Shown: positions 2,636-53,607 of the stretch, in pieces
Layout of the letters: every line of letters begins with the position of its first letter
How positions within the stretch are numbered: position 1 is the stretch's first letter
NCBI RefSeq assembly: GCF_037975245.1
Contig: NC_092576.1
Coordinates: 42,317,111-42,381,110 of the forward strand
DNA from: Apostichopus japonicus
Lineage: Eukaryota; Echinodermata; Holothuroidea; Aspidochirotida; Stichopodidae
DNA length: 64,000 nucleotides
Direction of reading: 5' to 3'
Position numbers and translations under genes: made by a program
The notes under the pieces: generated by a model
What the model was told of the DNA's origin: nothing
Seen by the model: only the letters and a program-made list of their open reading frames with translations
Databases searched by the model: none

Positions 2636-3002
2636 GTAACAGTTGATGTTCAATATGTCTGTATTGAAGTACAATATTCTTTCTGATACCAATATCCGTT
2701 CATTGTATCATAATATAACGTGAAGAAAATTGTTTCCTGTACTAAACGTGGTTGCAAATACTTCCAATTTATTGCATTTAAGCATTTTCTGATATTTTAA
2801 TGAAAATCACCTACACAAGATAATATTGAAAAATTGGTCATCTGAACTTTTTCTGAAAACAAATACAACATTTCCGGAAGATAAGGGAAGATTCTAAATT
2901 TCAAATATTTAAAAAAGAAAAAGAAATGTCAGCTAAGACGGTTTTGGCAAAGTTAATTTTAATGTACTAACCAGCATTTCAGTGTACTCTACTCCAATTC
3001 AC

Positions 3003-3800
3003 AATGAGAGGTTCGCTGGTAAACCCTTCATAGATATATAACATTTTAATAGTAAACTGTACAAAAAATACACTCCAGTTATAATACTTGTGGGCTATGA
3101 GAGATTCGCTGGTAAACCCTTCATAGATATATAACATTTTAATAATAAATTGTACAAAAAATATACTCCAGTTAAAACACTAGTGGGCTATGAGAGGTTC
3201 GCTGGTAAACCCTTCATAGATATATAACATTTTAATAGTAAATTGTACAAAAAATACACTCCAGTTATAATACTTGTGGGCTATGAGAGGTTCGCTGGTA
3301 AACCCTTCATAGATATATAACATTTTAATAGTAAATTGTACAAAAAATACACTCCAGTTAAAACACTAGTGGGCTATGAGAGGTTCGCTGGTAAACCCTT
3401 CATAGATATAGAACATTTTAATAGTAAATTGTACAAAAAATACACTCCAGTTAAAACACTAGTGGGCTATGAGAGGTTCGCTGGTAAACCCTTCATAGAT
3501 ATATAACATTTTAATAATAAATTGTACAAAAAATATACTCCAGTTAAAACACTAGTGGGCTATGAGAGGTTCGCTGGTAAACCCTTCATAGATATATAAC
3601 ATTTTAATAGTAAACTGTACAAAAAATACACTCCAGTTATAACACTAGTGGGCTATGAGAGGTTCGCTGGTAAACCCTTCATAGATATATAACATTTTAA
3701 TAGTAAACTGTGCAAAAAATACACTCCAGTTATAACACTAGTGGGCTATGAGAGGTTCGCTGGTAAACCCTTCATAGATATATAACATTTTAATACTACG
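3003..3800. repeat. Left tandem array, ~93-bp unit, about 9 copies
   Basis: Nine head-to-tail copies with the core TATGAGAGGTTCGCTGGTAA followed by ACCCTTCATAGATATATAAC. Variants after CCAGTT alternate between ATAATACTTG and AAAACACTAG in the first copies. The array starts about 30 bp past the transposase stop codon. Its core is shared, in opposite orientation, with the array at 27040-29390, which suggests subterminal repeats of one element. Confidence 0.93.
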
Positions 3801-3827
3801 CCTATTGTACTATACATTTGCCCTCGT

Positions 3828-6800
3828 TTATGATGCAGTCCCTGCATCTAGCTCTCTATAACTGGCTTTCAATGTCTCTACTGTCAATTTCTTCAGTTTC
3901 CTCCCCTTGGTCAAAGTGAAATCCCATAAAATAAGTGAAGAGACAGGTAAACAAGATGTGTATGGTGAGGGCTGTTTGCTTGTACCAGCTACCCAGAATT
4001 GCCATGCTCCAGAGTAGCTCCCTTTCATCCACTGTACAAGGACATTCTCATCATTTCTCTCAATGACCTCACCAATGAAAGGCCTACCTTCCTTTTCCTC
4101 ACAGTGGACAGCCACCAAAACTCCACTTTCAACAGAGGCATAGCTGTCCATCAGTGCCACTCTTTTATGTGGCCTACCTTGGTCCCCTATAAAAATCTAG
4201 AAGGTAGAAGAAAAAAATTACACTACTGTTACTTAGTAAACCTGAACTGCTATATGTACTATAGTTAGTAGAACAGACAAACTAAACGTTCATTATTCCA
4301 GCTTGCTGCTGTTCATTGATTCCATTCATAGGGTAATTTTTAAGGATGCCTTACAGTAAAAAGAGAAAAAGTCCATGCCCCTCATAAATATACATGGCAT
4401 TGATCAATAATTCCCTTGTTGGAAGTTGAAGCCCTAACCCCCAACCCCAACCCAGTTTCATAAATGGTTTTTAAACATTGAAATGCCAAACTTATTTTCA
4501 GATCTACTTTTGAGAATATGTATGGTAAAATTGGACAATAAATCTGCTTGAATAATCCAAAGTACTCACTTCAGGGCAGCTGGCATCCACGTTGCTTATT
4601 ATAGCGTCAAAAGCTGAACTTTCAGTTGGTGTGACTCTGTCTTGCCCAAAGGTCTTCAGCAGGGCAGACAGGTTCCATGGTTGAGTCAATGGAAGCTGCA
4701 GAGAATAAACGAGCAAATTTAATTTAATACTACAATATATGGGTTCATTATTATGGAATGAAGTTCTTATTGGGTAGATGGTTTTCACAACCATTTCTCC
4801 TACACCACACCTGTGTATCAATGTATCACCTAATTTATGCTTTATAAGCATACTTAGGCAATACTTTTGGACAGTTATTACATACCTGATCATAGGTTGA
4901 AGACACATTAGCCATGAAGTTCACCCACCATTCTTCTGCTGAAGGTGGTAGTCTGTGGCAATAGTTCTTCGGCAGCTCCTTCACCAACTTGGGAAGATCT
5001 AATTTGTCTAAATTGGGTTCTACCCACTCCATAGATTGTGATAGGTCTGGAACATCCTGTGTCAGAATTTAGATAAAAGTTGCTAAACCATCACTCATTA
5101 ACTTCTAAGCATAACAATCAAGTTAACTTGACACTTTGAATAGATCTAGTAACTGTTATCTTCTATAAGGATGAAAATGTAGGTAAAAAAAAAAGTCTTA
5201 GAATTTGAACTGAAGTGTTAATGTTGCTGTCCAGACCATTAAGATCTACAAATGTGCCATTTTGTAGTAAGTAGGAAGCAATTACTGTACCTTCAGACAA
5301 AGAAGTCCATGAGGAAGTTCTTCACACTCTTCTGGTTTCCACTGACTGGACTCCCATTTTTTATAGTGCATGTAACACCTTTGCTGGACCTTTCTAAAAC
5401 GAAACCAGTGAGGTTTGCTGTGGTTTGCAAAATGTCCATACAAATGCTTATCCAGCACAGATTTCACATTTGGGATGGCAGTCACAGCACGAACGTCAAT
5501 GTGTGGGGTGAAGCTCTTAGCTGTCTCAATTTCCAAGTCTGTTAACATAAGTAAATGTACTGTTTATTTCTGTATGTAAAAACACAATTATTTTGAAAAT
5601 ATGAACAATAAAGCATTTGTGGTTGTCATTCAAAATCACTACTTTATCAATTTGCCAAAAGTCCTTGTATAGATAAACCACTGAATATTTGGCACGTACA
5701 TTGAATATCCTTACTTTTCCCCCTGCAAGACGGATGCCATTACAGGGAGGGGTCATAAGGGAGGGGGTGCCCTCAAACATTTATTTGTTATTTAAGGTGC
5801 ACATGCTATCTTTAAGCTTCAAACTGGGTAATTCTTATTATTTAGTGAAGCTATCATTATTTTTCCTAATTTGCAAGTGGGTGGAGGTCAATGGGGTATG
5901 GGGCAAGAGAAAGTGAAGCCCCTTGCACTTGAAGAAATGGTTGTCTATTCCACTTTGGTGCAAAATAATGTTTTCTTGTGCTAACCTTTGAAGTTATTAT
6001 GTGTTATTAGTAAAAGGAATCAGTGCCAACCTACCACCAGATTAGTATGCTGCTGGCTATATTGAGCAATGAAAATGAAAATTTGAGATTTAAACATGTC
6101 AAAGCAGATAATTTCACATAATTTTGCTTTTTCCTTGAAGAAAAAATTAACCATTCACCAAACAATCTTCAAAGAAAAGAACTCACCTTCCAGTGTATAC
6201 ACATTGGTATGATTCAAATGACGTGCCACGCAGGAAAACATCTGATCCACGTCTTCGTGTGTATGTCCAACAGGGAGAAAATGAATATAAACCTGCAAGT
6301 AGAAAACATAATTGTTACTATTGCAGGAACACAAAGATCATTATGCTTGTATTTTTAAGAACTTGACCAACCTTTTAGTAAGGGTGTGCAACAAACTAAA
6401 TAACCACTAATTGGCTGTTTCATTCAATGTGATACATTAAGATAGTAAATATACTATTGCTACATATCTTGGGATATAATGTTTACATACTTGGGCATGA
6501 CATACCCATATATAAACACACCAACTTGACTGCATAGGTTATATGACTGCTTTCAGCAATATAACCAAAGGATTTGTAACCATATTGTATTTATGCATTA
6601 AAGTTAACAATTTGCCTCCCCCATCTACACCCATCAAGCTTCCCATCTCAGCAACAACAACAACCCATGGCCACTCCTGGCTCTGAGCCAATGTCCAAGA
6701 ATTTATCAGGAATTTGGATGCTGTAGCTTACCTCTTCAAAGATGTCTCTTTCCACAAGGAGGGCTGCAAAGGACAAGACAAACTTATTTTTGTTTTCTCT

Positions 6801-9487
6801 AAAACAGTTGTCCATTTGTAAAAATAGCACTTTGCCCAGGTAATCTTGTGCTGCCTTCAAAGCTTCCGTCAAACAGTATATGGTGAGGTTGCTATCATGG
6901 GGAATGTGCTTCACATCATGAAAAACAAATGGCATTTTTCCTTCAGCTGTTGATGTGTGTAGAAGAACACCTGTAACAATTAAAATATTAGCATTTTAAT
7001 ACATCAAATTTCAACCTTTCATTTTCTACATCACACAATGCAAAATCTGAAAACATGACAGGAGTTCAAGTAAAGAGACTATGATTCTGTTGTCTCTCAT
7101 TTACCTGTGAAATGCACTGGTAGTCGTGCCAAACTAGCACTATCCTTGTCCTTCACGATGAGATGTGGGATATCTGTCTTGCTTTGGTCCATCCCATCAA
7201 TGATCATGCAAGTCATCTCATGTGGTTCCCGTCTGGCCCTCTCACGAGCTAGATGATAAGCTCTTCTCTCAGCTCTGTGCAGAAGCATAAAAGGATGGAA
7301 ACCAAGTAAGACTGGTAGAAAATTACAAAGGATGCCGAATTTGCTCCTTACAGAGCTGTTATGAAACCTCTATGCTGCTCACAAGAGGCCATAGTTCTTA
7401 CATTGGTTAAATCATAGACCTTGGTACAAAAGTCCAATCCCAGCATGAGCAGTTCATGTAACAGGCATGCACACATAATTTGCAAGGAAAAATCCAGCAT
7501 TGACTAGAAACATGACTCAATTCACAAAAATAAGCAGTTCTAAATCACTGAGAAAAACACATATTTAGACCATATTTTGCCAGACTAGAGGATATGGAAA
7601 TCGAGCTAGGCACTACTATGGGTCAAATCCCTCTTAATACTGATGCTGCTCCATTTATGTCAGCAACCCCTTTTAGATGACGGCAACAATTTTCAACAAT
7701 ATTTATGAATTAAGCGCCAGAAAAAAAAAAATACTGTTAAAAAGAACTTACTCTACAAATTTATCATGGGATGCCTTTAACCCAGAAATTTTTTGCCTTT
7801 GGTCTTCACTGGAGGACTTCTCATAGGCTTCCTGAAGTTGTGTGCAAGTGGTGCACTTGGAGAAATCTGTAGACTGAGAGAAATGTTTAAAACAAATGTA
7901 ACCATGAGGTTCACTTTATAATATCAGATATGCAATGATTTTACATACTACTTGACAAACTCAGCTGCATGTTAAATTTTCTGATTAATGAAAAATACAT
8001 AATAAATCATACACTAGTGCACTGTTTACCAAATGTACTTGTACTATGTCCCACAGTTAATAGGTTTCCTGAGCACAGCTTATCTACATAAATAGTAGCA
8101 AACCTGACCTTCACGTGTACCCTACCTTGGCATGATCACCATTTGCAAAGAAACAGCGATACTGAGCTGGATCTGTTGCAACTAACAAATCTTTGTCAAG
8201 TTTTTCTGTGCCACTTATAAATTGCATGTAAATTTTATGTAAAATAATACCAGTTAAGGAAAATATTTTGTCCTTCAATGGCTAGTTTATGCGTATGTAT
8301 AACATGTATACAGTAAGTGGGGATGTGCAAAATTAGGGAAACTTAACTAGCCTGGTTAACTGTCAAGACTTGAAGAATTTATTAATTATTTTAATGTCTT
8401 CATGTTATAATATCAAACAATCCTCAAGAACAGAGCAATCTGCTGCATTTTAATTGTTTCGAGAAATAATATGTCCATAGCATCAAGTACCATCATACAC
8501 TACAAAAATCATACTCACATTAGGAATGGTGAACTGTGGTAGCTTTTCCTGCCATATGCGAGTAAAATGCTCATAGGATATGAATCCTCCAGGAAGTTCA
8601 TTTTGCGTCACTAGTTCCCTCGTCATTCTTTCATATACCAGCCTTTTTGTCCAAGTGTGAGGAAGGTGCACCAATGTCTTATGGGGCATGTAATCACCCA
8701 TTCTCTTAAATAAGTCACTCATCCATGCCAATGACTTGATGGTTCTGTGGCACATTCTTCTCTTCCCTTTATTCAGATGTTGCAATGTCAATTTTCCAGC
8801 TTTGTATCTTTTTAAGCAATCTTGGAATCTCCACTTGCTTACACTGTGGGCTATACACTATGCTTGTTCACAAACAAGTTTCCCACCTACAACAAACTTG
8901 TGAAACAATGTAGGCCTAATATTGTTGCTTGATCTTATTAAGGTGGTATGTTTACTTAGTTCTGACAAAATATACTGTTTTTGTAAAGACTCATTTCTGG
9001 TCAACATCTCCTTATGACATGAAGAAAGGTCATTAACTGACAAGGTACTCATGCAATTGTTGTGACAACATTTCTCTTTAAGCATTGGACCCGGGTCGAA
9101 TTTTGATGCCATCCTCTGTGCGTCATACAACTTCCTTTTCCGACTTGGCAAATTAATAGTACTACTTTGCAGAAGCTGAGGTGCTTGTTGTGGTAAAAAT
9201 GTATTTGTACAACCCTCATCTTCAGAATCCGAGTCTGATTCTGATAAGTACAGATGAAGTTGTTCACATGTTGTTTCTCCATGTAGTCCCAATGCTAACC
9301 CACTTTCCTTCCTACTAGTGTTACCTGTAACTGTGCTGTCTACATCGGACTGACCTGAGTCTGATGAATAACCATCAATTATTGTTTGTGTGCTCAAGTT
9401 ATGTTCCACTCCATTTGTAAACAAATCGCTTTCTTCCGAATCTGTTGAGTAGCCGTCGATTATTGTTTCTAAAGAGTCATTCATCAT
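3828..9487 (-). CDS. Ten-exon transposase-like gene (DUF7869-like RNase H motifs), interrupted by TAG
   Basis: Exons 9487-8515, 8205-8126, 7873-7752, 7274-7105, 6970-6732, 6292-6187, 5538-5291, 5056-4886, 4695-4570 and 4196-3828. Phases agree throughout and total 868 codons including the stop. The first two junctions (8515/8205) are the least certain. The N-terminus is acidic with a duplicated TIIDGYSxDSxxSD. Next come a Cys motif FSKCTTC (about residue 355) and three motifs typical of an RNase-H-like DDE core: IIDGMDQSK (~418), LQMDNCFRENKN (~500) and FLPVGHTHEDVDQMFS (~535). I know these motifs from the uncharacterised DUF7869 family of animal repeat-encoded proteins; the family name is from memory. 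The C-terminal exon has Trp-rich segments ending in a LWDFTLTKGRKL stretch. Codon 210 is TAG inside the otherwise continuous VCEQA*CIAHSVSKW, so the copy is probably inactive. The gene abuts the left tandem array. Confidence 0.8.
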
Positions 9488-10640
9488 GAATCAACAAACT
9501 TGTAGCCTGACTGTTAGTGTTACAACTTACACTGCCGTATCATGTACTTAGACCGGCTATGAAAAGTATGAAACGATCCATCGCGTAACTACTACCTCTA
9601 GCACTTTGTACTAGCCTACAGTACTACTCCATTACACGATAGCGTAGTGGTACTTGTGTACAAGCTTGTGCCTAGTTTATAGTGGTAAAATTACGACTGA
9701 GCCCCTCGTCTTTGAGAAGACAACTTTGTTATTATTATATCGACCGGATATGCACTACTACCTTAGTAAAAAATCACCGCAAGTCGAAGGGATGCTACAA
9801 CATGAAAGAGCGGCCACTCTTTGAAGTGTTTAGTCATGCCTGACTGCACCAGACAGAACAATTGGGCTGTATAGCTGGTTGAGTAATTGTATAGGCACTC
9901 GTTACGTTATCATATACTATACACATAGATAACGTAATACCAATTACTAGTCACAGTCTCGATGCACAAGGGGGCTAAGATTGAGAGCGGATTAGTCGGT
10001 GCGTTGTTTGTTTATTTTTTCGTGCCCAGGTTCTTTCCCGGGTGACTTTTCTTTAGAAAAAGTAGCCGTGAGAGGTTGTACCGTGGTGTAGAGCAACTGC
10101 CCTACATTACACATATAGCTTAGTCTTTTAAAGGGGAAATGGTCACTCATTCATATGCTACGAGTGACAGTTGTGATTTGTGAATGCTAGCTTACTTGAC
10201 CATGGGAGGAATGGACTGGCAGAAGGGGGTACCGAACTGTTACAAACTCAGTTATTCAAATTAGCTAATCAACACAGTCAGGCAGCTGCAATATAGTACT
10301 AATGGGCTATATATACCAAAGTAGGGAAGGGTGGATTTGAAAATCTTTAGTACGACTGTCGTTCATTTCTCGCCACCGGTCACTTCTGCACCTTTCAAGG
10401 TTATTAGTCTGCATTAGCATGTGTGTTACGTAATTAATTTGCATGACTATTAAAGGAGCCGAGCTTGGAAAAGTCACTTGCACGGCTCAATATTCCCGTA
10501 ATCTACCACTATTGAAATGCCAGAGGCAGATAAACTCTTGTGGTACTAAAGCAGCTTTCAAAAAAGGACGCAAAGTTTGCGTCCTTTTCTATGATTTTTC
10601 TCAACCTAACTGACTCCACGATGCCATAACGACAGACATT
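9488..10640. other. Non-coding spacer upstream of the transposase gene
   Basis: No convincing ORF on either strand. This is where the transposase promoter would lie, but I see no clear TATA or initiator. The only structured piece is a 27-bp palindrome at 10562-10588 (AAAAGGACGCAAA, one base, then its complement). Confidence 0.5.
10562..10588. repeat. Perfect 13-bp-arm palindrome
   Basis: AAAAGGACGCAAA is followed by a single G and then TTTGCGTCCTTTT. As RNA it would form a tight hairpin with an A-rich 5' side and U-rich 3' side. It does not match the histone 3' stem-loop that I know. Function unknown. Confidence 0.6.
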
Positions 10641-11572
10641 ACAAGCAAGGGATCACAGTATTACCATGAATGATAAAATTATTAATCGGGTTAACACGAC
10701 TAAGTTCTTGGGTGTACACATAGACAATAAACTTTCGTGGCGTGATCACATATCAGCAGTCTGTAACAGAGTGGCTAGAAATACTGGTATTTTATGCAAA
10801 TTAAAACATTATTTACCTCCAAATATACTCAGAACACTCTATATAACTCTGATTTTACCCCAATTAACTTATTGCGCGACTATTTGGTCAGGAACCTATT
10901 CTACAAATCTTAATCACCTATGTGTCCTCCAGAAGAGAGCTATCCGCCATATATCACATGCTGCACCACGTGATCATACTAGCCCATTATACAAAAGATT
11001 AAATTTATTAAAACTAAATGATATTATAAGAGTCCAGCTTGCAACATTTGCATATAAAGCATGGAATGGATTGCTACCCGAGGCTTTTAAAGATTTTATA
11101 TATAGTAATAGACTAATCCACAACCATCAAACACGCCATTGTAATAACGCCCATGTTTTATCCCAACGAAGTACTTTAAGTTCTTTTAACCCTCGTATTC
11201 GTGCTGTAAAAACGTGGAATAATCTCCAGGATAATGTTAAGAATAAGCCTTCTTACTCTGTATTCAAAAGGAATCTCCAAACTGTAATTATTTCTCACTA
11301 TTAATGGATTTATTCTTGTGTGTGTGTTTGCGATTAAGATCATTATAAAGATTGTTAGGATCGCTTATTAACATTATTAATTTCTAGTAGAGTCAATTCG
11401 ATTATTTCATCATTGTAGATGCTACTATTAACTTTTCATTTCTATTCTTAAGTTTTTCTTTCTTTTTTCTTTTTGGGGAGTCTCCTACTTTGTTAAGCCT
11501 TACAGGCTTTATAGGAGACTTCCCGTCACACTGTAAATTGTGATGAAACAAATAAATATACAAATATACAAG
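10640..11572 (+). mobile_element. 5'-truncated non-LTR retrotransposon (RT C-terminus plus 3' tail)
   Basis: An open frame at 10666-11304 encodes 212 residues of the C-terminal part of a LINE-type reverse transcriptase ORF. Family hallmarks are the post-RT segment TKFLGVHIDNKLSWRDHI, then LILPQLTYCATIWSG and LCVLQKRAIRHI. The catalytic palm is missing, so the copy is 5'-truncated. After the stop, a 3' UTR with the inverted pair GTCTCCTACTTTG and CTTTATAGGAGAC runs into a short AAATATACAAATATACAA tail, as in CR1/jockey-like elements. It lies inside the candidate giant transposon and is a later insertion. Confidence 0.8.
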
Positions 11573-11935
11573 GGCGTAGGAACCGGGGGGCTGGGGGCGC
11601 CAGCCCCCTCCCCCCGTGAAAAATGTGGAGGGGCGGAAGTATCATTCCGCCCCCCGCTTCGCAAGTCAAATTACCCCTTTTTCATTTCCAAATGAGAAAA
11701 AAGTCTCATTTGGAGCACCAAATTGCATCTAAGGCCAGGTGAAAATACAAAATTAAGTTTACAAAATGGAGTGGGTGTTGTAGTGTGCTATATTGCACCA
11801 AATTGCATCTGAGGCCACCTGGAAATGCAAAAAAAATCCAAAGGGGAGGGGGACACCCCCTCCCCTTAGACCCCCCAGGCCGGCCATCAGTCTTCAGGCC
11901 CCCTCCCCACTCAAAAGTACCTTCCTACGCCACTG
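11573..11935. mobile_element. hAT-like MITE with G/C-rich interior
   Basis: The left end reads GGGCGTAGGAACCGGGGGG. The right end reads CCTTCCTACGCCACTG, the complement of a CAGTGGCGTAGG end typical of hAT-like termini. A near-identical flank (ATATACAAG and ATTACAAG) may be an 8-bp target duplication with one indel. The interior repeats ACCAAATTGCATCTRAGGCC twice. No coding. Confidence 0.55.
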
Positions 11936-12904
11936 ATTACAAGCTTATTTATTCAAATCTTACTTCAAGTGGCACAAAAGTGGCAAAATTTACAATTTTC
12001 ACATTTGTTTTTCTCGTTGGGAAAACTTGGCTAATATCTTAATAAGAATGCTGTTTTGTGATTCATATATTTAAACAACCCGATGACCATATCAAAACGT
12101 GCAAAACGGCGACAAAACGCAAAATGGTTCTTTAAAGGGCGCATTTTCTAATGGGTGTGTGAGGGGATGAATGTGTTAATGGTTGTAGTGGTTCAAGCTC
12201 TGAATTCTTCTTGTGGATCTTGACAGTTGGTATATGCCATTGTTTATGACATTTATCTGCTGCAAAAATACTTTCGTGCATGCACTTTGCCTTACTTTTC
12301 TAGGTCTTTAATAAATACATGACCTATTTCTTCAGTGAATTTTGCTTCCATGTAACTCAGACAGATAGTTTGTTTACTTGCATGAATATGTTACCCTCTT
12401 AAGTATGATATGTAATGGAAGAAAACTTTAAGTCCTACATTTAGCCACGTGTAAATGGTTTCCAAACTTTATCCAAATGAGGCTATTTACAATTTTGAAC
12501 ACTGTATAGAAAACATCAGGTTTCAAATATGCCCTGTTTTGGTCATCATACAACCAATTATGAAGAAGGCTTCAATTTTCTGGTTTAATAGGCTATAATA
12601 GAGGGCGCCCTCTATTTGATATCAACGGTATAACAACTGTTAAATGCATTTTACGCACATATAGGGTGAAGAAGGGGTAGAGGGAGAGGTATGTTTTTCA
12701 GAGAACATGCCATACTTGGTAGCCTATGGGGAGCTCCACAAATTCTTGAAAAAAATATGAAAATGTCAACTTGCAAATTTCTCTCTTCTGTTGGCCTGCT
12801 GGCTTAATAACCCCCATCTGCTTTGATCAACATAGTCGCCAAGCAAAGCCTGGGTCTCATATCTTTGAAAGACGATTTGTCAAGTTATTATACAGTTTCA
12901 CATA
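11936..12904. other. Non-coding AT-rich spacer
   Basis: No supported gene or clear repeat. Only short random ORFs are present. Confidence 0.4.
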
Positions 12905-13125
12905 ATGGCCAGTGGCGGCGGAACCGGGGGGGGGGTCTTGGGGGGGCTCAGCCCCCCCAATGAAAAAGTTGAGGGGGAAAATGCGTGATAAGCCCCCCCA
13001 ATATTTACCAAGGCTCCGAAACGTGCATCTGCCCATTTTCAATGCCTATTTGTCGATCTGTCCGATGCACACGTATACTATATAGGTGTAATAATTTTAG
13101 TAAATGCTGGGGGACCCTCGGCCCG
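12905..13125 (+). repeat. Dispersed G/C-rich repeat, copy 1
   Basis: Begins CAGTGGCGGCGGAACC followed by poly-G/poly-C runs, then ATTTACCAAGGCTCCGAAAC, GTCGATCTGTCCGATGCACA and TAGGTGTAATAATTTTAGTA. The same blocks occur in reverse orientation at 50185-50397. The CAGTGGCG start resembles a hAT terminus; the other end is not resolved here. Confidence 0.7.
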
Positions 13126-13489
13126 TCCCCTGGCTATAGACCACATTGTCACCACAACCGCGTCTTCACGCCCCGTGAAAAGTGGAAGCAGTGAGTGTGA
13201 GTACCGGTAAGCGTAACACAACTTCGTCTTAGGCCAATGACTTGCCTCATTTCAGCCAGTTCTCAAACATCCCCTTACTTGGTGACGGAGCGTCCATCTA
13301 TACAGTCAGGGGGCGGATGCCCCCCCCCCCCTGACGGACTCAAATGGACTGCTGGCGCCCTTTTCAGCACTACTTATTACTTATTCGCGATTATTGACTA
13401 TTTTATTGCGCTCTCATATACCTATTGACATTTTTCATATTCTGTTGGTGTAATTTTCCGACAAAATGGAGACGACACCTATTTATTCA

Positions 13490-14085
13490 CTGTTTCAAAT
13501 TAAATCCGGTATATGTCATATTAAATCGGCATATACCAATTTAATTCGGCTTCTACCTAATGAAATCGACATATCATCGATTTCGCGGGCCTTGTCAGGT
13601 GACTGCACGTGATGTACCTCCACCGATATTAATCATCACCGAAATCGGGATTCGGAATATGTTAATTAGCTAAATCGATGATATATCGATTTAAATAGGT
13701 ATATGTCAATTTGAGTTGCTAGAAACTGGTATAAGTCCAATGAAATTGACTTCTATCGATTTATTTTACATATCATCGATTTAAATAGGTATATGTCGAT
13801 TATAACCGGTATATGTGGATTTAAACTTGTATAAGTCGAATTAAATTGGTATATGTCGATTTAAATGACATATACCGATTTAATTTGACATATCATCGAT
13901 TTGTTTTACTCATCATCGATTTAAATTGGTATATGTCGATTTAAATCGATGATATGTCGAATTAAACTGGTATATGTCGATTTAAATCGGTAGAAGTCAA
14001 TTTAAGCTGCTAGAAACTGCATGGTATAAGTCGAAGGAAATTGGTATATGTCGATTTAAATCGGTATATGTCGATTCCCCACGTT
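13490..14085. repeat. Degenerate repeat field of GGTATATGTCGATTTAAAT in both orientations
   Basis: About 600 bp built from a ~20-bp motif, GGTATATGTCGATTTAAAT and its reverse complement, interleaved with ATATCATCGATTT and AGTCGAATTAAA variants. ATCGAT and TTTAAA palindromes recur. Motif orientation flips many times, unlike a simple head-to-tail satellite. Non-coding. Confidence 0.75.
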
Positions 14086-14769
14086 TTCAGACTGATGGCC
14101 CGCCATATAAGCGACCACGAATGTGGGAGAAGCCCGTAAGGGCTTATAGATTACAACTTACACGTTGAGTGGCTTCCAATTAAACATTTTTAGCTCAATT
14201 ATGGAATTTTTTCATTTAGAAAGTTATTTAATATGGGAAAACTGTATTCTTGCTCTTGGATGAGAACCCACCTTACTATGACCCGGCCAGGTGGTAGGAA
14301 GCTTCCAAATAGTGGGGAGTCCACATATCAGAGGGGCACTTTCTCATTCCACAACCGCCACTCGTTATGCTATAAAAACCGATACACACCGCAACATAAA
14401 AGGATTAAGCTGACAGACCAGGTTTAGTATAGAATAATATGCTAGTAGAATGAGCTGCAAACATGATGTTTTATTTATTGAGATTGTTTATTGTTAACTG
14501 TGCTACAAAAAGAAATGATAATTGAAATAATATATTAAAATTAGCAAAGGCTTAAGAATCTAAAAGACAGTTCTTCATCAAAAGGGGACATTTTATTTGC
14601 CAGTAGGGCACATTTTGCTTTTTGGAAAAAAAGTGGGGTGGGGGCACTTTCCCCCCGTGCCCCGGCTCCTGCCCCACTGGACCCGGCCAACCCCAAACCT
14701 CCAGATTGCTAAGCCTCATTGCTTCAAATGCCACAGCCTTTATATCCACTCGGCCACATGGAAGCAGGA

Positions 14770-15845: not shown

Positions 15846-15849
15846 ACTA

Positions 15850-18005: not shown

Positions 18006-18009
18006 GGAG

Positions 18010-18126
<117 letters not shown>

Positions 18127-18178
18127 AGGCCTATATATAATCGAAAATCGTAATGAGTTGGAAAATCAAGAACAGTAG

Positions 18179-18484
<306 letters not shown>

Positions 18485-18578
18485 TTGCAAAACGGGAGGG
18501 ACTGGGAAGGAAAGAGAAAAAAAACAATTAGTCTGTCTGGGCTTGCCATCTTAGCTTCTCATTGCTCTTTTACTACCG

Positions 18579-18586
18579 CCAATCAG
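18579..18586 (+). promoter_or_regulatory. Candidate CCAAT box upstream of the ParB-methylase gene
   Basis: CCAATCAG lies about 180 bp upstream of the chosen ATG at 18763, in an otherwise unremarkable 5' region. It matches the NF-Y type CCAAT box. No TATA is evident at a fixed distance, so this is only suggestive. Confidence 0.3.
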
Positions 18587-18762
18587 CATCCACCTTTTTG
18601 GCGGGGAATTTGTCCACTCCGAATATCACGGATATCACCGCATAACCACAGCGCTTAGTGTCCGGGTTAACAAATCTTATTGTTGTCTAGCTCGCATTTA
18701 AAGAGTCAAATAAATTTAGAATAATCATAGCAATCGCAGAAATCAGCACGTTACACATCACT

Positions 18763-21700
18763 ATGACTAAGGCAAGAAAATGGTGGATGGAGACCGAAAC
18801 TGGGGGAGAAATCGTCATCCGAGTTCAAGGAAACACTGGTCCCGAACCTCTGAGACATAACCAGACTCCGAAAAGGAAATACAGTGGAGTCGCTAGTTGC
18901 GAACCTTACGAAAAGGATGGACAAATGTTGAAGGTGAGTTTTTTTTCTTCAAAATTCCATTTAATGTGTATATACCGCTGTGGCTCTGACTGTTTGTAAC
19001 AACAAGAAAAGAGATATATATATAATAGATCAGTCTCATTAGGCAAGTCAAGATATGACGAAAATGCCCTGCGTATTATGTTACAGCAAAGTAGAAACTG
19101 TGTACTGACCATAGGTACTGACAAGCGTTAGCAAGAAAAGTTTTACGCGTTCCATGAACCATAGGGATAAGTTAGGTAATGTAGTGTGTATAAATGCGTT
19201 ATCGTCTAAATTTACATTATTGCGAGTACAACCACAGATAATCTTTAGTACAACTTTTTCCGGGGTTTAAGCGTATATGAGATTGGGAGTAAGTAGCCTA
19301 TCGATATCAGTGCCGATACAATATAACATAATTTAGGCCGTAATATTAAAACGATTGCTTTATTAACTCATGTTTTTAGAACCATAATGTTTACGTTTCA
19401 ATGTTTCATGAAGTGGCTACGTTCACCTGTGGCATTTCAACTCAATATCCTATGCTATTATTAATGTAGTACTAGTTCTGGTGATACTAACATTATAAAT
19501 GTAGTGACAAAGGCTACTTCTTTATCGACAATATCTTAGCCTATACCACCACTCGTTATCTATAACCTGTAGGCTGTACCCCTATTACAGGGGTCTAAAA
19601 CAGTTAGAGTATCGCAGGAGTCAGTTAGGAGAGGGGTTGGGGAGGGTAATTAGTTGATGTATGTTTAGTGTACGTCAGTTAAACCCTAGAGGTGGGTTAA
19701 TTCGTTTTGGTTTAGTAACATGGTTTTCAAATTTAGCACTAATTAAATTAATTTTGCCTTGTATAGGCCTATCTAGCGTTTCCCTAATTTGCTACACACT
19801 GTTGAGGAAATTTTTCTTATAGGGATAAAGACCAATAGGGATAAGTTAGGTAATGAAGTGTGTATAAATGCTTTATCGTCTAAATTTACATGATTGCGAG
19901 AACAACCACAGATAATCTTTAGTACAACTTTTTCCGGGGTTAGGCGTATATGAGATTGGGAGTAAGTAGCCTATTGATACCAGTGCCGATACAATATAAC
20001 ATAATTTAGGGCGTAATATTAATACGATTGCTTTATTAACTCATGTTTTTAGAACCATAATGTTTACGTTTCAATGTTTCATGAAGTTGCTACGTTCACC
20101 TGTGCTATTTCAACTCAATATCCTATGCTATTATTAATGTAGTATAGTAAAGGCTTCATAATTGACGCACCCCCGTAATTGACGCACCTTCAATTATTAC
20201 TAGCAACGATATAGAGGGCAACCTAAACTTTTTGCAGTCAAGCAGAATTACATATTTTCATGAATTTTAATCCATTTCAGCTATTTGCTGACCAAATTGT
20301 GGTATTTTTTACCCTTTTAACACCCTCCCCCCAGTTTAACACATATTTTTGACATTTGGAAATCTTACAGTACTCCCTAAAAATAACCAAAATTACTTCA
20401 ATATGATACCACTACTCTCTGGGACCTGACCTGTCTAAGCTTAGAGGTTCAGAGCATAGCAAACAGCATCCAAAGTCAATGGATGTATACTTAGGCCTAC
20501 ACTACAGTTAGGTTATCGACGAATGTGTCAATTTAGGGGTATGAAAGAACTTGACACAGCAGACATTTTGTGGTCAAATTCTTCTCAATTGTACGTTGCG
20601 TAGGCACAGAACAATAAATATTTTGAGATCATTACATTTCTGATGAACTACACATATGAAAAGTGCATGCAGTTGAGTGATTTTGATTTTATGTTGACCG
20701 ACATCGTCAATCCAATCCTTAAGTGCGTCAATTATGAGCCCACCATGCTACTAGTGCTGGTGATACTGTTATTAAACACTAGAGGTGGGTTAATTTGTTT
20801 TGGTTTAGTAATGTGGTTTTCAAATTTAGCACTAATTAAATTAATTTTGCCTTGTATAGGCCTATCTAGCGTTTCCCTAATTTGCTACACACTGTTGAGG
20901 AAATTTTTCTTATAGGGATAAAGACCATAGGGATAAGTTAGGTAATGAAGTGTGTATAAATGCGTTATCGTCTAAATTTACATTATTGTGAGTACAACCA
21001 CAGATTATCTTTAGAACAACTTTTTCCGGGGTTAGGTGACATGAGATTGGGAGTAAGTAGCCTATTGATACCAGTGCCAATACAATATAACATAATTTAG
21101 GCCGTAATATTAATACGATTGCTTTATTAACTCATGTTTTTAGAATCATAATGTTTACGTTTCAATGTTTCACTAAGTTGCTACGTTCACCTGTGCCATT
21201 TCAACTCAATATCCTATGCTATTATTAATGTAGTACTAGTGCTGGTGATACTGTTATGTAGTGACAAAGGCTACTTCTTTATCGACAATATCTTAGCCTA
21301 CAGTATACCACCACTCGTTATCTATAACCTGTAGGCTGTACCCCTATTACAGGGGTCTGAAACAGTTAGAGTATCGCAGGAGTCAGTTGGGAGAGGGGAT
21401 GGGGGGGGGGTAATTAGTTGATGTATGTTTAGTGTACGCCAGTTAAATACTAGAGGTGCTTCAATTTGTTTTGGTTTAGTAGCGTGGTGGGCTAACTAAA
21501 TTAATTTTGCCTTGCATAGGCCTATATAGCGTTCCCTAATTTGCTACACACCGTTGAGGAAATTTTTCTTACTTTGTCATTCAGTCATTATGTTTGTGCA
21601 TTCAGGATGTCTCAGAACAATTTGAAGAATTAAGACCACCAAGATAGCACTTTGAGAACTTCTAACAATTTATAGCATACAGTCTGTCAGAGTTTTTTAT

Positions 21701-24700
21701 AAACAATTAAACCAACTTTTTGAAATATAGCCACTACAGGTTGATTTGTGTAGACGACCTGTAGCCTGCATGCAAGTGGGGGTGTGGGAGGTCATGGATT
21801 GGTAAATTAACATCCCTACGTACTTCTAGCAATTTTTTTTATTGTTCATAAGACTGATGATGACCAAAACATGGTGAGGAGGCTAAAGCCCTCCCCGCTC
21901 CCCCCCCCCCCCCTCTGGATCTATCTACCAGTCCCTGAGTATGGCTAATTACACACAATCAACTAGAATAGTTTTTAACACGTTCACATTTCTTTTCAGA
22001 TTTTCTTCACGGATAGAATTGACAATCCACGAGCCTTTCAACTGAATGCCTTCTCCTGGAATTCTTCTGAATTTTCACGTCAGTTTCAACCCCTCCTCTC
22101 AAATAAGAATAAATTTAGTGAAAAGCTGAATGACTTGGTAGGGTCATTGCAATCTTCCTACACCATCGTTCAAGTTCATAGAGAAGATGATACGGTAGTG
22201 AATCCGATGTCTACTTTTGAGTGGGAACTTTCAGGAAGTGAGGTCCCAGAGATAGGGGACTCAGTAGTACATAGGTGAGTATCCACACATGAAGAATAGA
22301 ATTAATGTAGACTTTTAACAAAATTATCTGATATTAATGTGCAATTCAAACCATTTAATGATTACTATACATTAGGATCCATGTAGGCTTGCAATTTGAT
22401 TAATCAGTTTTATTACCACGCCCTGGGGAAAATTTACCTCGCTGTGACATTCGGTCATCTTTTATCCTCATAAAATGTCTACATGGCACCCTTTGTATGT
22501 ATACACAACTTAGGGCAAATTATTGTCAGCTTTTGCCACGCTGGTGTATGATTTGTCATTGGCAGGACAGATACTACTATACAGCTAGCACAGACTGTTT
22601 CAAGTCTCCTCAAACCTGGTGTGTTACTAAGGGCATTTGCATACTTATTAAGTAGATCTGATAGTTAGGAAGGGTCACATGACCCTGTATTAACCAATCA
22701 CAGGGGCAGATTGTAAATAACCCATAAATAGGGGTTGTAGAAATGTGAATAATCTGTCACAATCACAGGTGTTGTAATGTATAATATTGATGGTTCTTTT
22801 ACAGCACTCCAGCTAGAGCACCCACTAGACAGACAAAGAGAACAAATAGTGCTTCCATTGATGACCTCCCTGCTTTGTTTAAGAAGAAAAAGTTGGAGAT
22901 GTCTGCAGATCTCAAAATCATAGAAGAAGTGAAGGAAGCGTACTTGGGTAAGTTTCCCCAAACTTCAACATGGCCTGACGCACCAGAGGAATTTGTATTT
23001 AAACAGTTGTCAACTGCAATTTTTCCTTTACATCAATTTCCATGACAATACTGCTGAGGTCAAAATAAGCAGTTTTTTTTAAGGTAAGAGGTCGTGCACT
23101 TGCATGGACAATAAACTGTTTACATTCCTGTCTAATTCGCCGTGTTACTGTTTGCAACCTGTATGGAAAAAATTCCTGTGAGGGAAAATAACCTGAGAGA
23201 TCTCAGCAAGTTGCTCATTTAGTCAGGAGGAATAACAAGGTTTTAGGGCTGTTAATACAAAATGATATGTGCAATTGACTGCCAGGGTATGTGTCTCTTA
23301 TGCTCCAGAGTTTTTATTTTTCAAATCACAAAAGTTTCCTTCTAACTTAATTTATTCAGGTTCTGCCAGAATCCAAACAGCCCATCTGACGTTAGGCATC
23401 CAGCTGAGAGAAATTCGGGAGGCTTTTGTGACTGAGCTGATGGACAAGATGGTTGAGTTTCCTGGGCATTTTTATCAACCTCTCTGTGTCATCATCGACA
23501 CCCTTGATGACATCACTCATTTTAAGGAAACAAATGTAAGTCACCATATCAAAGTGTATGGACACATTTGATGAGTCCATACTAAGTTTGACCAGTTATT
23601 GATTAAATTATAAACAAAGACTTACAAATCACAATTCAACAAACCAAATCATTGCTGTAATTGTTTTGACATTATTTTGTTCTTCAACAGGCAAATGGTT
23701 TCCATTACAAAGTTATTGGAGGCTGTCACAACTATTCTGCTGCTGAGCGACTCAGTCAGATGTACCCTGGTCAAGATGTTTTCAAGACTAGACTGTGCTC
23801 TATTTACAGCAACACATTGAGTGAAGAGGCTATCCTTTGGCTTGCAAACAGACACAATAAAGTGGGAGAATTTAGACACAGCATGTCATTAAAGGAAAAG
23901 GTAATTTATCAGTTGAGTTTTGATGACCTTTTAACAGTTTCTAATGACCCTGTGACTCGCCAATTTTGTGAATCCCAACCAATTTTTAGGCAAGACTCTG
24001 GGCTTGTTTTCTGCAGATTGCACGTTCAAGTGTTCAAGTCCTGGGGTGGTCATTGTGGTTGTTCTTGTCCCTACCTGGATGTCCATACAAGTGTGTACTT
24101 TTCTATTAATTCACATTGTTCTGTTCCTCTGTCTTACAGATACAGCTCTGTCGGAATATTTTTGAGACATCTGGGATGGAGAATGAGCAGTGGCGTACTA
24201 CTGTGACGGCAATTTTTAGTCCAGAAAGTCTTGCTGGCAAATTTACCTTACTGTTTCTTACATACGTAGGACACTAGAAAAGCTTCTATACACTGTTTTG
24301 TTTAATTAATTTCGATATATAAATCTATTAATATATTTATATATCAAATTTCCAGTCAGCACAAGTTAGTGCACAATTGAATTCTTGTTGTGCTTGTTAT
24401 TTCCCTATTTATGACAAGTTTGGTGATTTTGTGTGGATCATGCTCTTTCATATGTGTTTTTTTCGGTGAAAAAAAAAACAATTTTTGCATTTTCAGTGCA
24501 TTTTTTCAGTGAAATTGATGAGATAGATATTGAATTGTTATTGAAAGTCATGATGGGCAGAGTGGCCAAGACTCTGGTGCTTGTTATCTGGGTTTACAAA
24601 TGTCCACTTGTGATATGACTTGCACTTGTTTGTTATGCAGGAAGAAACAAAGGGTGTTATCAAGCTTTTGATAAAGCTTGCAACACTGGAGGAAGAGACA

Positions 24701-26957
24701 TATCATCTGCTCCAGGAGGTTCTATGTCAACATGCTAACGGTAGACTAAAGGGGCAGAACCTGTCATACAAAGACATAACAAATGGTCCAGATATGAAAC
24801 CCTATGTTTTGGTATCGCTGCCATCACTGCCATCAACTGCTGCTAAACAGGTGCTGTCAGAGGTGAGGGATGGTACAATGACTCTACCAGATTTACAGAA
24901 GGAGACAAAATTACTGGTGAAGTTGCAGTCAGTCCAGAGGATGTTTGTAGACCTAATGGGTATAAAGAGCTGGGAAGAGGCTACGCAGCAGTATCCAAGG
25001 GCAGCAACCAGGGAGGCCTTGGAGCATTTTTGCAGATTCAACCTGCGGTCAACACCTCCTGAGTTGAAGTCTTTCTGCCAGCAGCTGAAGCTAGAAGCCA
25101 GCATGGAACTTCAGTGTTTTAAAAGCATCAATGGAGCTGTTTGCTATCCACTGCTGTGTGATGCCCGGGAACTGGATAGTGAGACACTGCTGGAAGAAGT
25201 TCCATGTTTTACTGGAGCAACCTTGGTCATCTTGGACAAACCACAGGTAACATTTAGTATACATATGGTTTCAATTTGAGCAGTATTTGCAGATAAGACT
25301 AAATTGTTGCAATGGTGCTTCTCCAAGCTTAGGTTGGAGATTGGAGGCTTGGACTGATCTTGTAAGTGGTATGTACATGTAATGTTTTGCGTTCAAGAAG
25401 CCTATTGCTTTTGTTGGCGGTCAGATATCATTTGCTGTCAGCAGGGGTTAAAAGGAAACCTTGTAAACAGATATCTCAAGAATGGAAGCTTGGAAAGATC
25501 TCATATTTGGTGTGTATAGTGTTTCACTTTGAGAAAAAAAAAAGCCTTATGTTTTTTCGTAGGTCCTTTGGGTCAGATTGTGGAAACCTTTTAAATACAA
25601 CATATTAAGAAGGAGGGCAAGTTGAGAGATCACAGACAACTACATCAAAGATAAATGTTTTGTTGTATGACTATCAATAATGCTCATTGCTTAAGCCTTG
25701 TGATCCACCTCCCCACTATTAAAACTGTAATTAGGAGAGATTAATTATAATATTTCCCTTTTTTATATTCTGTTTTTCTTGTTCTAGGATTGGCAATGGA
25801 CAGATGTAAAGACACTTGCCAATGCAATTACATCTGTCAATATACACTATGGTATAGACAACTTCACGCTTGCAGTGATAAGCCCTGTGCGAGACATGTG
25901 TGATGTAGAAAAGGCCATTGTGGAAACCAGGCATTTTAATGAGCCTGTATCAGCATTCTACATGGTGGATGACCATAGTAATAGTAAGTATATTTTACAT
26001 GCAGCTTTTGAATTATTTAAACAAGCTGCTCCTCTGTAGCCAGTAACTTTCTGCTTCAAAAATAAAAAAAGAAAGAAATTCTGTTGATGCAAATTCTGCT
26101 AAATACTGTTATTTTGTTAGGATGATTGCAACTAGCTATGTTGTTTGAAAATTTTTCAGACTATTCCTTCAAATTGGCATGTTGTGCAACATGCGAGAAA
26201 TTTTGTGTTAACAAGGTGACTTCTGTATTTATGGATTTTTACCAGCTGTACTCCTCCAACGAATATGTGTGATCATATTTCCTAGTTTCAATCTTAGAAT
26301 TTACTGCTTGAAAGAAAATATCGTGCAAAGGCTTTAGGTTACCATATTTTTCCCATTAACACGGATAGCTTTGTTTGTTCGGCAGGCAATCAAAATCAAC
26401 TCATTGACTGTGTTGGGTCCATTACAATTGCAATGAGGGGGCTGAAGAGGCCAGTTTCCTGGAAAGCTGGACATCACCGCAATTGTATTATAGTACAGAA
26501 GGACCTTGCATTTTTTCATGACGGTGTCCCTATTGACAAAAATCAGAAGCCTATTGGACTATTCCAGGAATTGGTTTCTGCACTCACTTATCCCAAGGAA
26601 TGGATTTTGGATGTGTGCAGTGGCACAGGTAATATTGACCTCTATTTACATTGCAACTTACACTTGTTGTGTTTGCCAATTGACAGGAAGTATTATGATA
26701 CATATGAATAAGGAAGTTTAATTTTGATTTATTTGTTTATTGTTTTTTCAGGTACTGGATGCTTAGCAGCCCTCAAAGAAGGCAGAAATGTTGTTGGATT
26801 GGAGAGCAACAAGAAGATGCTAGAAGCCATCACTATGCGGCTCAGCACCCAAATCTGTGAAGTTGGACCAAAGGACAATGAGATAGCAGAAGATGAGGAC
26901 AGTGTTGATGAGGACAATGTAGAAACACTAAACCTCACATTGTCTACTGGTGTATGA
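18763..26957 (+). CDS. ParB-like domain plus DNA N4/N6-methyltransferase-like protein, ten exons
   Basis: Exons 18763-18933, 22000-22274, 22805-22947, 23360-23535, 23691-23900, 24140-24265, 24641-25246, 25788-25983, 26386-26628 and 26752-26957. All have GT..AG and matching phase, giving exactly 784 codons (783 residues). Residues ~200-340 look like the ParB/sulfiredoxin fold: CVIIDTLDDITHF, then YKVIGGCHNYSAAERL (the GxxRxxA-type loop, with Asn where Arg is usual), then LSEEAILWLANRHN. After a helical linker, the C-terminus matches a beta-type DNA methylase: motif IV at 567-570 reads DKPQ instead of D/N/S-PP-Y/W, then KPIGLFQELVSAL, then the SAM loop WILDVCSGTGTGCLAAL and GRNVVGLESN. The tail is acidic. 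ParB-methylase fusions are known in phages and bacteria. Here the introns show it is eukaryotic. The TGA lies ~85 bp from the right tandem array. DNA-binding or epigenetic control of the element is inferred; catalysis is doubtful because of DKPQ. Confidence 0.82.
19157..21570 (+). repeat. Three tandem copies of a ~670-bp block inside methylase intron 1
   Basis: Copies start at about 19161, 19835 and 20926 with ATAGGGATAAGTTAGGTAAT and share GTGTATAAATGC, CGTCTAAATTTACATTATTG, CTTTTTCCGGGGTT, GATTGCTTTATTAACTCATG and CCTAATTTGCTACACAC. Copy 2 lacks a middle piece (the TAGTGACAAAGGCTACTTC region) and holds the 604-bp insertion described separately. It lies in the 3.1-kb first intron and no coding potential was found. 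Confidence 0.85.
20145..20748. mobile_element. 604-bp MITE with TA target duplication
   Basis: Sister repeat copies give the empty site (TGTAGTACTAGT). In the middle copy the TA is duplicated around an insert whose ends contain TCATAATTGACGCAC and GTGCGTCAATTATGA, inverted repeats of each other. TA duplication fits Tc1/mariner-type or related mobilisation. The internal 90-codon ORF has no recognisable features. Confidence 0.75.
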
Positions 26958-27039
26958 AGCCTTTGTCCTTGTGTACTATGCCCAAGTATATAACAGAATT
27001 GAGTTTATGTCTTTCTATGGTTCATTAGCAATAATTTAA

Positions 27040-29390
27040 AACAGTATTAACTTTTTTGCCTTTTTATGGTTCATTAGCTTTAGACTTCTGGTGGACTAAG
27101 TGCAAATAATCTAAAACAGTATTAACCGTTTTTGCCTTTGAAGGGTTCACTAGCGAACCTCTCATAGACTTCTGGTGAACTTAGTGCAAATAGTCTAAAT
27201 CAGTATTGACTATTTTGCCTTTGAAGGGTTCACTAGCGATCCTCTCATAGACTTCTGGTGAACTTAGTGCAAGTAATTTAAAACAGCATAAACTTTTTGC
27301 CTTTGAAGGGTTCACTAGCGAACCTCTCATAGACTTCTGGTGAACTAAGTGCAAATAATCTAAATCAGTATTAACTTTTTTGCCTTTGAAGGGTTCACTA
27401 GCGAACCTCTCATAGACTTCTGGTGATCTTAGTGCAAATAATCTAAATCAGTATTGACTATTTTGCCTTTGAAGGGTTCACTAGCGAACCTCTCATAGAC
27501 TTCTGGTGATCTTAGTGCAAATAATCTAAATCATTATTAACTTTTTTGCCTTTGAAGGGTTCACTAGCGAACCTCTCATAGACTTCTGGTGAACTTAGTG
27601 CAAATAATCTAAATCATTATTAACTTCTTTGCCTTTGAAGGGTTCACTAGCGAACCTCTCATAGACTTCTGGTGAACTAAGTGCAAATAATCTAAATCAG
27701 TATTAACTTTTTTGCCTTTGAAGGGTTCACTAGCGAACCTCTCATAGACTTCTGGTGATCTTAGTGCAAATAATCTAAATCAGTATTGACTATTTTGCCT
27801 TTGAAGGGTTCACTAGCGAACCTCTCATAGACTTCTGGTGATCTTAGAGCAAATAATCTAAATCATTATTAACTTTTTTGCCTTTGAAGGGTTCACTAGC
27901 GAACCTCTCATAGACTTCTGGTGAACTTAGTGCAAATAATCTAAATCATTATTAACTTCTTTGCCTTTGAAGGGTTCACTAGCGAACCTCTCATAGACTT
28001 CTGGTGAACTTGATGCAAATAATCTAAATCAGTATTAACTTCTTTGCCTTTGAAGGGTTCACTAGCGAACCTCTCATAGACTTCTGGTGAACTAAGTGCA
28101 AATAATCTAAATCAGTATTGACTATTTTGCCTTTGAAGGGTTCACTAGCGAACCTCTCATAGACTTCTGGTGATCTTAGTGCAAATAATCTAAATCAGTA
28201 TTGACTATTTTGCCTTTGAAGGGTTCACTAGCGAACCTCTCATAGACTTCTGGTGAACTTAGTGCAAATAATCTAAATCATTATTAACTTCTTTGCCTTT
28301 GAAGGGTTCACTAGCGAACCTCTCATAGACTTCTGGTGAACTAAGTGCAAATAATCTAAATCAGTATTGACTATTTTGCCTTTGAAGGGTTCACTAGCGA
28401 ACCTCTCATAGACTTCTGGTGATCTTAGTGCAAATAATCTAAATCAGTATTGACTATTTTGCCTTTGAAGGGTTCACTAGCGAACCTCTCATAGACTTCT
28501 GGTGAACTAAGTGCAAATAATCTAAATCATTATTAACTTCTTTGCCTTTGAAGGGTTCACTAGCGAACCTCTCATAGACTTCTGGTGAACTTAGTGCAAA
28601 TAATCTATATCAGTATTAACTTTTTTGCCTTTGAAGGGTTCACTAGCGAACCTCTCATAGACTTCTGGTGAACTTGATGCAAATAATCTAAATCAGTATT
28701 AACTTATTTGCCTTTGAAGGGTTCACTAGCGAACCTCTCATAGACTTCTGGTGAACTAAGTGCAAATAATCTAAATCAGTATTGACTATTTTGCCTTTGA
28801 AGGGTTCACTAGCGAACCTCTCATAGACTTCTGGTGATCTTAGTGCAAATAATCTAAATCAGTATTGACTATTTTGCCTTTGAAGGGTTCACTAGCGAAC
28901 CTCTCATAGACTTCTGGTGAACTTAGTGCAAATAATCTAAATCATTATTAACTTCTTTGCCTTTGAAGGGTTCACTAGCGAACCTCTCATAGACTTCTGG
29001 TGAACTAAGTGCAAATAATCTAAATCAGTATTGACTATTTTGCCTTTGAAGGGTTCACTAGCGAACCTCTCATAGACTTCTGGTGATCTTAGTGCAAATA
29101 ATCTAAATCAGTATTGACTATTTTGCCTTTGAAGGGTTCACTAGCGAACCTCTCATAGACTTCTGGTGATCTTAGTGCAAGTAATTTAAAACAATATTAA
29201 CTTTTTTGCCTTTGAAGGGTTCACTAGCGAACCTCTCATAGACTTCTGGTGATCTTAGTGCAAGTAATTTAAAACAATATTAACTTTTTTGCCTTTGAAG
29301 GGTTCACTAGCGAACCTCTCATAGACGTCTGGTGAACCGTGCAAGTAATTTAAAACGATATTAACTTTTTAAAAGTATTAATTAATGCAA
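27040..29390. repeat. Right tandem array, ~82-bp unit, about 27 copies
   Basis: Head-to-tail copies of GCCTTTGAAGGGTTCACTAG, CGAACCTCTCATAGACTTCT and GGTGAACTTAGTGCAAATAA, with a final AT-rich variable part. The first two and last three units are diverged (CAAGTAATTTAAAAC variants), and the centre is near-identical, as expected for arrays homogenised from the middle. Decayed partial units continue to about 29520. Reverse-complemented, the core matches the left array (CTATGAGAGGTTCGCT, ACCCTTC). Confidence 0.95.

Positions 29391-46535: not shown

Positions 46536-53607
<7,072 letters not shown>

Follow-up and report, generated by a model that had tools for sequence, protein, structure and literature searches.

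The window, i.e. the whole 64-kb stretch of DNA that was analysed (C16:42317111-42381110), comes from the sea cucumber Apostichopus japonicus with its genome of 671.6 Mb. It contains two divergent multi-exon genes located between two tandem arrays, as had already been stated in a preliminary description of this DNA: one on the minus strand (9487-3828, nine exons) and one on the plus strand (18763-26957, ten exons). Both gene models consist of manually placed exons with consistent phases and GT-AG borders. Genes and arrays lie within a transposon of 27,409 bp (27.4 kb) at positions 2745-30153. The features in the window are the following:

2741..2744, no strand: left target-site duplication ACTA, from the copy-to-copy boundary
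2745..30153, no strand: complete transposon; both ends common to the copy on contig C17, flanks unrelated
2745..2776, plus strand: left terminal inverted repeat; 27/32 bases match the right end reversed
3004..3795, plus strand: left subterminal array; 93-bp unit, 8.5 copies, 96% matches, 9 cores
3828..9487, minus strand: DUF7869 gene, very probably a transposase gene; PF25273 E 4.2e-62, in-frame stop at codon 210; 9 exons (9487-8519, 7873-7752, 7274-7105, 6970-6732, 6292-6187, 5538-5291, 5056-4886, 4695-4570, 4196-3828)
10652..11568, plus strand: 917-bp nested insertion, in the window copy only, without counterpart in the C17 copy (copy alignment)
14773..15842, no strand: two short tandem arrays of GGTTGGGCGAAATG units, nested and inverted relative to each other, within the part common to the C17 copy
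18763..26957, plus strand: putative ParB-like/DNA-methylase-like gene (partner gene), 783 aa; 10 exons (18763-18933, 22000-22274, 22805-22947, 23360-23535, 23691-23900, 24140-24265, 24641-25246, 25788-25983, 26386-26628, 26752-26957)
27081..29370, minus strand: right subterminal array; 83-bp unit, 27.6 copies, 94% matches, 27 cores
30122..30153, minus strand: right terminal inverted repeat; pairs with the left end, 27/32 bases
30154..30157, no strand: right target-site duplication ACTA, from the copy-to-copy boundary

A second full copy of the element is present on another contig (C17:24687012-24713392). Homology between the two copies has the same boundaries, to the base, in both of them, and no similarity was found between the flanks of the two insertions at E 1e-3. 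The terminal sequences are inverted (left AACGTGGTTGCAAATACTTCCAATTTATTGCA; right, reversed, AACGTAGTTGCAAATACTTTCAAATATTTGCA), and target duplications with a constant length of 4 bp were found in all three family insertions of which both ends were seen, namely ACTA in the window, CTTC at C17 and GATG at a 921-bp derivative. The exact termini and target duplications which the preliminary description proposed to look for by aligning copies do therefore exist. Its idea of a large transposon was correct, but the suggested extent of about 26 kb (3003..29390) was too small, as the copy comparison sets the true limits at 2745 and 30153.

The two copies are identical at 25,349 of 25,439 aligned bases (99.65%; 90 differences), a figure in which neither the nested insertion nor 1,995 gap positions are counted. 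The outermost 258 and 783 bases are 100% identical, and in the four blocks plus end pieces outside the arrays the difference ranges from 0 to 0.23%. The arrays vary in size between the copies, with 9 and 27 cores in the window and 16 and 14 cores at C17, and roughly 250 bp located between left end piece and left array in the C17 copy are absent from the window copy. The open frame of the 917-bp insertion looks similar to the terminal part of a reverse transcriptase from non-LTR retrotransposons, and a Pfam scan gave no reverse transcriptase match for this frame.

A genome search with the terminal repeat, allowing at most two mismatches, resulted in 15 matches (control: 0). One of these places is the 921-bp internally deleted derivative (C16:12452826-12453746), which consists of the left 127 and the right 796 bases of the element with 99.2-99.5% identity and carries GATG on either side. 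Further matches are truncated or diverged, with a single end seen: C15:12690387 has a left end at 98.5% and little other element sequence in the next 20 kb, C7:12434176 has an end at 88% together with an 84-bp array, and C16:23.71-23.75 Mb is at about 89%, with stops in the transposase. Overall, the inverted repeats at exact ends, the duplications of constant length and the dispersed copies with non-autonomous derivatives are those of class II elements. The element is thus a genuine DNA transposon of the sea cucumber, very large and with recent mobility, and we hold with high confidence that a giant class II transposon is the best explanation overall.

Two observations concern the surroundings of the element. 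In the public gene model P0010 (BSL78_19541), DUF7869 exons are fused with the adjoining ephrin-receptor-like gene (window 3-1310), and a further A. japonicus assembly thus seems to have the element at this same position. At 47744-48503 the window contains a nearly perfect AGAT tetranucleotide array of 760 bp.

The two arrays were initially described as related sequences in opposite orientation. This is confirmed by a shared core that is found nine times in the left and 27 times in the right array, and this core of about 26-29 bp (26/29 bases), in opposite orientation, is all that the two unit consensuses have in common. No cores were found outside the arrays within the 64-kb window with up to 7/26 mismatches allowed, and none in five mononucleotide shuffles of 34 kb. 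The core is an imperfect palindrome (14/16 bases), a score that is reached equally well by 59 of 5000 shuffled cores. An exact search of the genome for the core gave 64 matches (control: 0), of which 34 belong to the window element, 28 to a single site on C17 where the pair of arrays recurs, and two are single. The arrays are subterminal, since the element extends about 260 bp past the left and 783 bp past the right array. Each gene was described as ending within about 30-90 bp of its own array, which is right for the left gene (its stop codon is 32 bp away) but not for the right one (about 120 bp).

The model of the DUF7869 gene comprises 839 codons with one in-frame stop, and the public A. 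japonicus protein P0008 is 100% identical over 71% of the gene. In an alignment of 17 DUF7869 proteins from echinoderms, hemichordates, amphioxus, sponge, coral, oyster and two further sources, the motifs IIDGMDQSK, QMDNC and VGHTHEDVDQ have their first aspartates at positions 433, 436, 517 and 559 of P0009. No variation is seen at these four residues among the sequences covering them (16-17 of 17), and the D..D..D RNase-H-like motif set that had been noticed in this gene is thus real. An AlphaFold model (mean pLDDT 67.8) gives the order strand-strand-strand-helix-strand-helix-strand-helix. Two short helices separate strands 1 and 2, D433 lies at the end of strand 1 and D517 at that of strand 4, and the predicted order fits an RNase H fold. 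A Foldseek search of the model against the PDB yielded no match at E 0.001, the top-ranked hit being an unrelated acetyl-CoA carboxylase. Many of the 50 weak matches listed have an RNase H fold, including Argonaute PIWI, NurA, RNase H1, Hermes and Tn5. The DUF7869 protein is very probably the transposase.

Exons 2-9 of the DUF7869 gene are identical in the window and C17 copies. In exon 1 (9487-8519), the window copy has a stop at codon 210 and the C17 copy has stops at codons 49 and 185, so that neither of the two full copies may be fully autonomous. Three codons of exon 1 are substituted between the copies, and each of them is a stop in one copy.

A separate observation concerns the C-terminal domain of the DUF7869 protein (profile positions 721-824; window 4196-3828), which matches the extreme C-terminus of the human cohesin loader NIPBL in a single clean alignment of about 100 residues (PDB 6wge_E 1537-1638, E 1.2e-13). 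Judged by this similarity, one of the two domains may be derived from the other. NIPBL is not mentioned in the transposase literature searched, and a literature search for DUF7869 found nothing.

The partner gene was first described as a phage-style ParB-methylase. The methylase domain proved to be real, but its catalytic motif is degenerate and the ParB part is without profile match. The A. japonicus protein P0001 is 98% identical over the partner gene; in this NCBI model exon 24140-24265 ends earlier, which results in 769 aa. Between the window and C17 copies four codons differ, none of them a stop. The C-terminal domain is of the permuted N6_N4 type (Pfam N6_N4_Mtase, E 5.2e-9), and its PDB profile matches (CcrM, RsrI and DpnA) are all restricted to the part from motif X to motif I. 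The stretch upstream of it (VIGGCHNYSAAERL and its surroundings) appears ParB-like when read by eye, as were its GGCHN motif and the order of its elements. No ParB profile in Pfam or PDB matches this stretch, and its only Pfam match is a sub-threshold DUF7883. The predicted structure of the partner protein is poor (mean pLDDT 47.7).

A profile search, in which the best 8000 candidates were scored, found at least 11 partner proteins, nine of them from A. japonicus or Holothuria leucospilota. The SAM-binding motif I (D-x-C/F-SGTG) and the motif X sequence QKP are retained in most members covering them. In contrast, the catalytic motif IV, (D/N/S)PP(Y/F/W), is absent from all six proteins that cover the site, two of which are from A. 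japonicus. The site reads DKPQ, DMPQ, DMPK, DKPE or DKPK, i.e. D-x-P-x, in which both the second proline and the aromatic residue are missing; DPPY was paired with DKPQ by a global profile alignment to the methylase of an Aeromonas phage, in which the confidence per position is low. A canonical [DNS]PP[YFW] does not occur anywhere in the 11 partner proteins, some of which are partial.

With catalytic motif IV lost, methylation by the partner protein is doubtful. The earlier notion of a DNA-modifying cargo is therefore to be narrowed: a methylase-like gene travels with the transposase, but whether it modifies DNA is questionable. One could still assume that the protein is an active DNA methylase and shields the element against nucleases or silencing, a role that has been proposed for the TET/JBP cargo of fungal transposons. 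The retained SAM-binding motif and motif X, the N6_N4_Mtase match and the presence of TET/JBP genes in fungal transposons of many superfamilies (PMC12730594) would agree with such a role. However, given the loss of motif IV in every protein covering the site, even if this site is placed at low confidence, and the lack of a canonical motif in all 11 proteins, we regard an active methylase as unlikely. A DNA-binding accessory factor, rather than a working methylase, is a possible function that we propose tentatively.

A phage origin of the partner is not shown by the phage sequences. When 50,697 phage records were searched by tblastn with the partner protein, 143 of them gave a match, in no case over more than 80% of the protein, and the 20 matches listed comprise only parts of query residues 562-739, i.e. 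the methylase end.

In the genome, 53 matches to the DUF7869 protein merge into 43 loci (57 of 57 candidates scored), and at least 54 exon matches to the partner protein merge into at least 18 loci (58 of 120 candidates scored). A partner locus is located within 50 kb of five of the 43 DUF7869 loci, and all five pairs are divergent (the window, C17:24.7 Mb, C22:19.55 Mb, C12:24.98 Mb and C8:11.10 Mb); the distant ones share 30-58% protein identity with the queries. Repeated co-occurrence of the two genes in the same divergent layout, as the preliminary description had suggested to look for, is thus seen in five pairs, but 38 of the 43 DUF7869 loci lack a partner. At 58 of 120 partner candidates scored, 13 of 18 partner loci are likewise unpaired within 50 kb. 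The opposite expectation, that the genes are found apart with unrelated flanks, hence holds in part, with the five pairs against it. The binomial probability of at least five pairs among 43 loci is 1.4e-7 if related copies are treated as independent, which is only a guide: the window and C17 copies hardly differ, and the C8 and C22 loci share an end.

Since 38 DUF7869 loci are unpaired and 33 of these form one group with similar scores, the partner is not always present in cis. In this group (e.g. C1:3306121, C9:2090262 and C16:18107388), many members have the same stops in an N-terminal exon and arrays of GGGGCGTACCAGTACGCCCC; the group was possibly amplified in trans. In Holothuria leucospilota, the locus tags 01154/01158 and 43994/43995, with the members of each pair on contigs of equal length, suggest two further linked pairs, as read from names and lengths only.

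The unpaired loci are also the argument for the assumption that two unrelated transposons are nested or fused here and that the gene pair is accidental. This is very improbable, because five loci hold the same orientation, the distant ones at 30-58% identity, two further pairs are suggested in Holothuria, and both genes lie within one set of ends in two copies. The proposal of one mobile unit is supported by the second, nearly identical copy with exact ends and its own duplication, by the non-autonomous derivative and by the five divergent gene pairs. An alternative without a transposon, the segmental duplication of two ordinary host genes along with satellite arrays, for which the many introns, the unusual length and the exon 1 defects in both copies might speak, was rejected as extremely improbable, since it is contradicted by the inverted ends, the three different 4-bp duplications, the two-ended short derivative and the unrelated flanks.

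The C8 pair represents a second lineage. An array of units of about 70 bp is located 3' of its DUF7869 gene, and the core of this array is a perfect palindrome, GGGGCGTAC-CA-GTACGCCCC, with 960 matches in the genome at one mismatch or less (control: 0). The about 100 matches listed make up nine arrays, none more than about 3 kb from a DUF7869 locus, and two single cores in opposite orientation, one at C8:11111964 on the far side of the C8 pair and one at C9:2070292 about 20 kb from an array. The element has a sharp end at C8:11096525 (within a few bases) that is shared by at least 26 further loci, one of them at the C22 pair (40 of 2869 candidates scored). The first bases of this end have no resemblance to the window terminal repeat beyond AA. 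Arrays of palindromic cores beside DUF7869 genes in both lineages point to a recurring design with lineage-specific sequence. The flank of the C8 element (C8:11094501-11096524) is itself a repeat, and this left flank has a 92% match, C8:11071960-11074010, that extends no further than the insertion point; from this similarity, the matching place is possibly an unoccupied site for the element.

Concerning the mechanism, the DUF7869 protein, as a DDE/D transposase, would bind to both array cores and terminal repeats, excise the element and join it to staggered 4-bp cuts in the target, and short derivatives would be mobilised in trans. The palindromic cores and the ParB-like region invite a purely hypothetical comparison with parS and ParB. 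As an accessory factor, the partner protein would recognise the palindromic cores with its ParB-like region, as ParB does parS, and help to pair or mark the ends, and its methylase domain would bind SAM but would have lost the ordinary amino-methylation chemistry. A wider proposal, which we consider doubtful, would be that DUF7869 elements constitute an undescribed superfamily of eukaryotic DNA transposons, in some lineages of which the ends are recognised in a parS-ParB-like manner: a ParB-like clamp encoded by the element and joined to a SAM-binding methylase without catalytic activity would be loaded onto the palindromic core arrays near both ends, would pair these ends lying far apart and would thereby permit the giant size.

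CACTA/EnSpm elements have arrays of short repeats near both ends and end in CACTA. The window element resembles them in its short-repeat arrays close to both ends, but it ends in AACGT, has 4-bp duplications and possesses a transposase of another family. piggyBac and canonical Kolobok, with a TTAA duplication, were rejected, since the duplications here are ACTA, CTTC and GATG. Pfam includes a KDZ model. A kinship with the KDZ elements (Kyakuja, Dileera, Zisupton), which was considered at first, is not supported, and membership was rejected because the Pfam scan of the transposase gave DUF7869 only and the duplication is 4 bp instead of 8 bp.

The KDZ elements with TET/JBP genes are likewise large eukaryotic DNA transposons with cargo of the DNA-modification type; they differ in that, according to the available part of PMC12730594, the Zisupton duplication is 8 bp, versus 4 bp here, and in that the cargo here is ParB/methylase-like. 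Among the known relatives, the fungal TET/JBP transposons of this source come nearest in concept. The available part of PMC10045372 gives target duplications of 3-4 bp for AcademX, which is similar to the 4 bp observed here, and associates a helicase or nuclease with Academ lineages; a Pfam scan found neither in the two gene products of the window element.

The recognised ParB motif is GxHR. In phages, where ParB-N6_N4 methyltransferase fusions are more frequent according to the available text of PMC12704722, these fusions have the same order as the partner, a ParB-like stretch followed by a permuted N6_N4 methylase. The partner differs from them in that it is without motif IV, has GCHN for GxHR, is encoded by ten exons and is housed in an animal transposon. 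The text of this ParB survey contains no word beginning with "transpos". No such element is described in the available parts of PMC12730594, PMC12704722, PMC9587614, PMC10294476 and PMC10045372, and we call the element undescribed only because the literature searched has no description of it.

In the presented element, an animal transposon has retained a protein of bacterial methylase type as a companion that moves with it, despite the loss of the protein's catalytic motif. Why transposons keep such methylase proteins is a question that is now open to direct test by binding and methylation assays. Moreover, DUF7869, an animal protein family with a placeholder name, now has exact ends, target duplications, a working definition and a tie to giant transposons.
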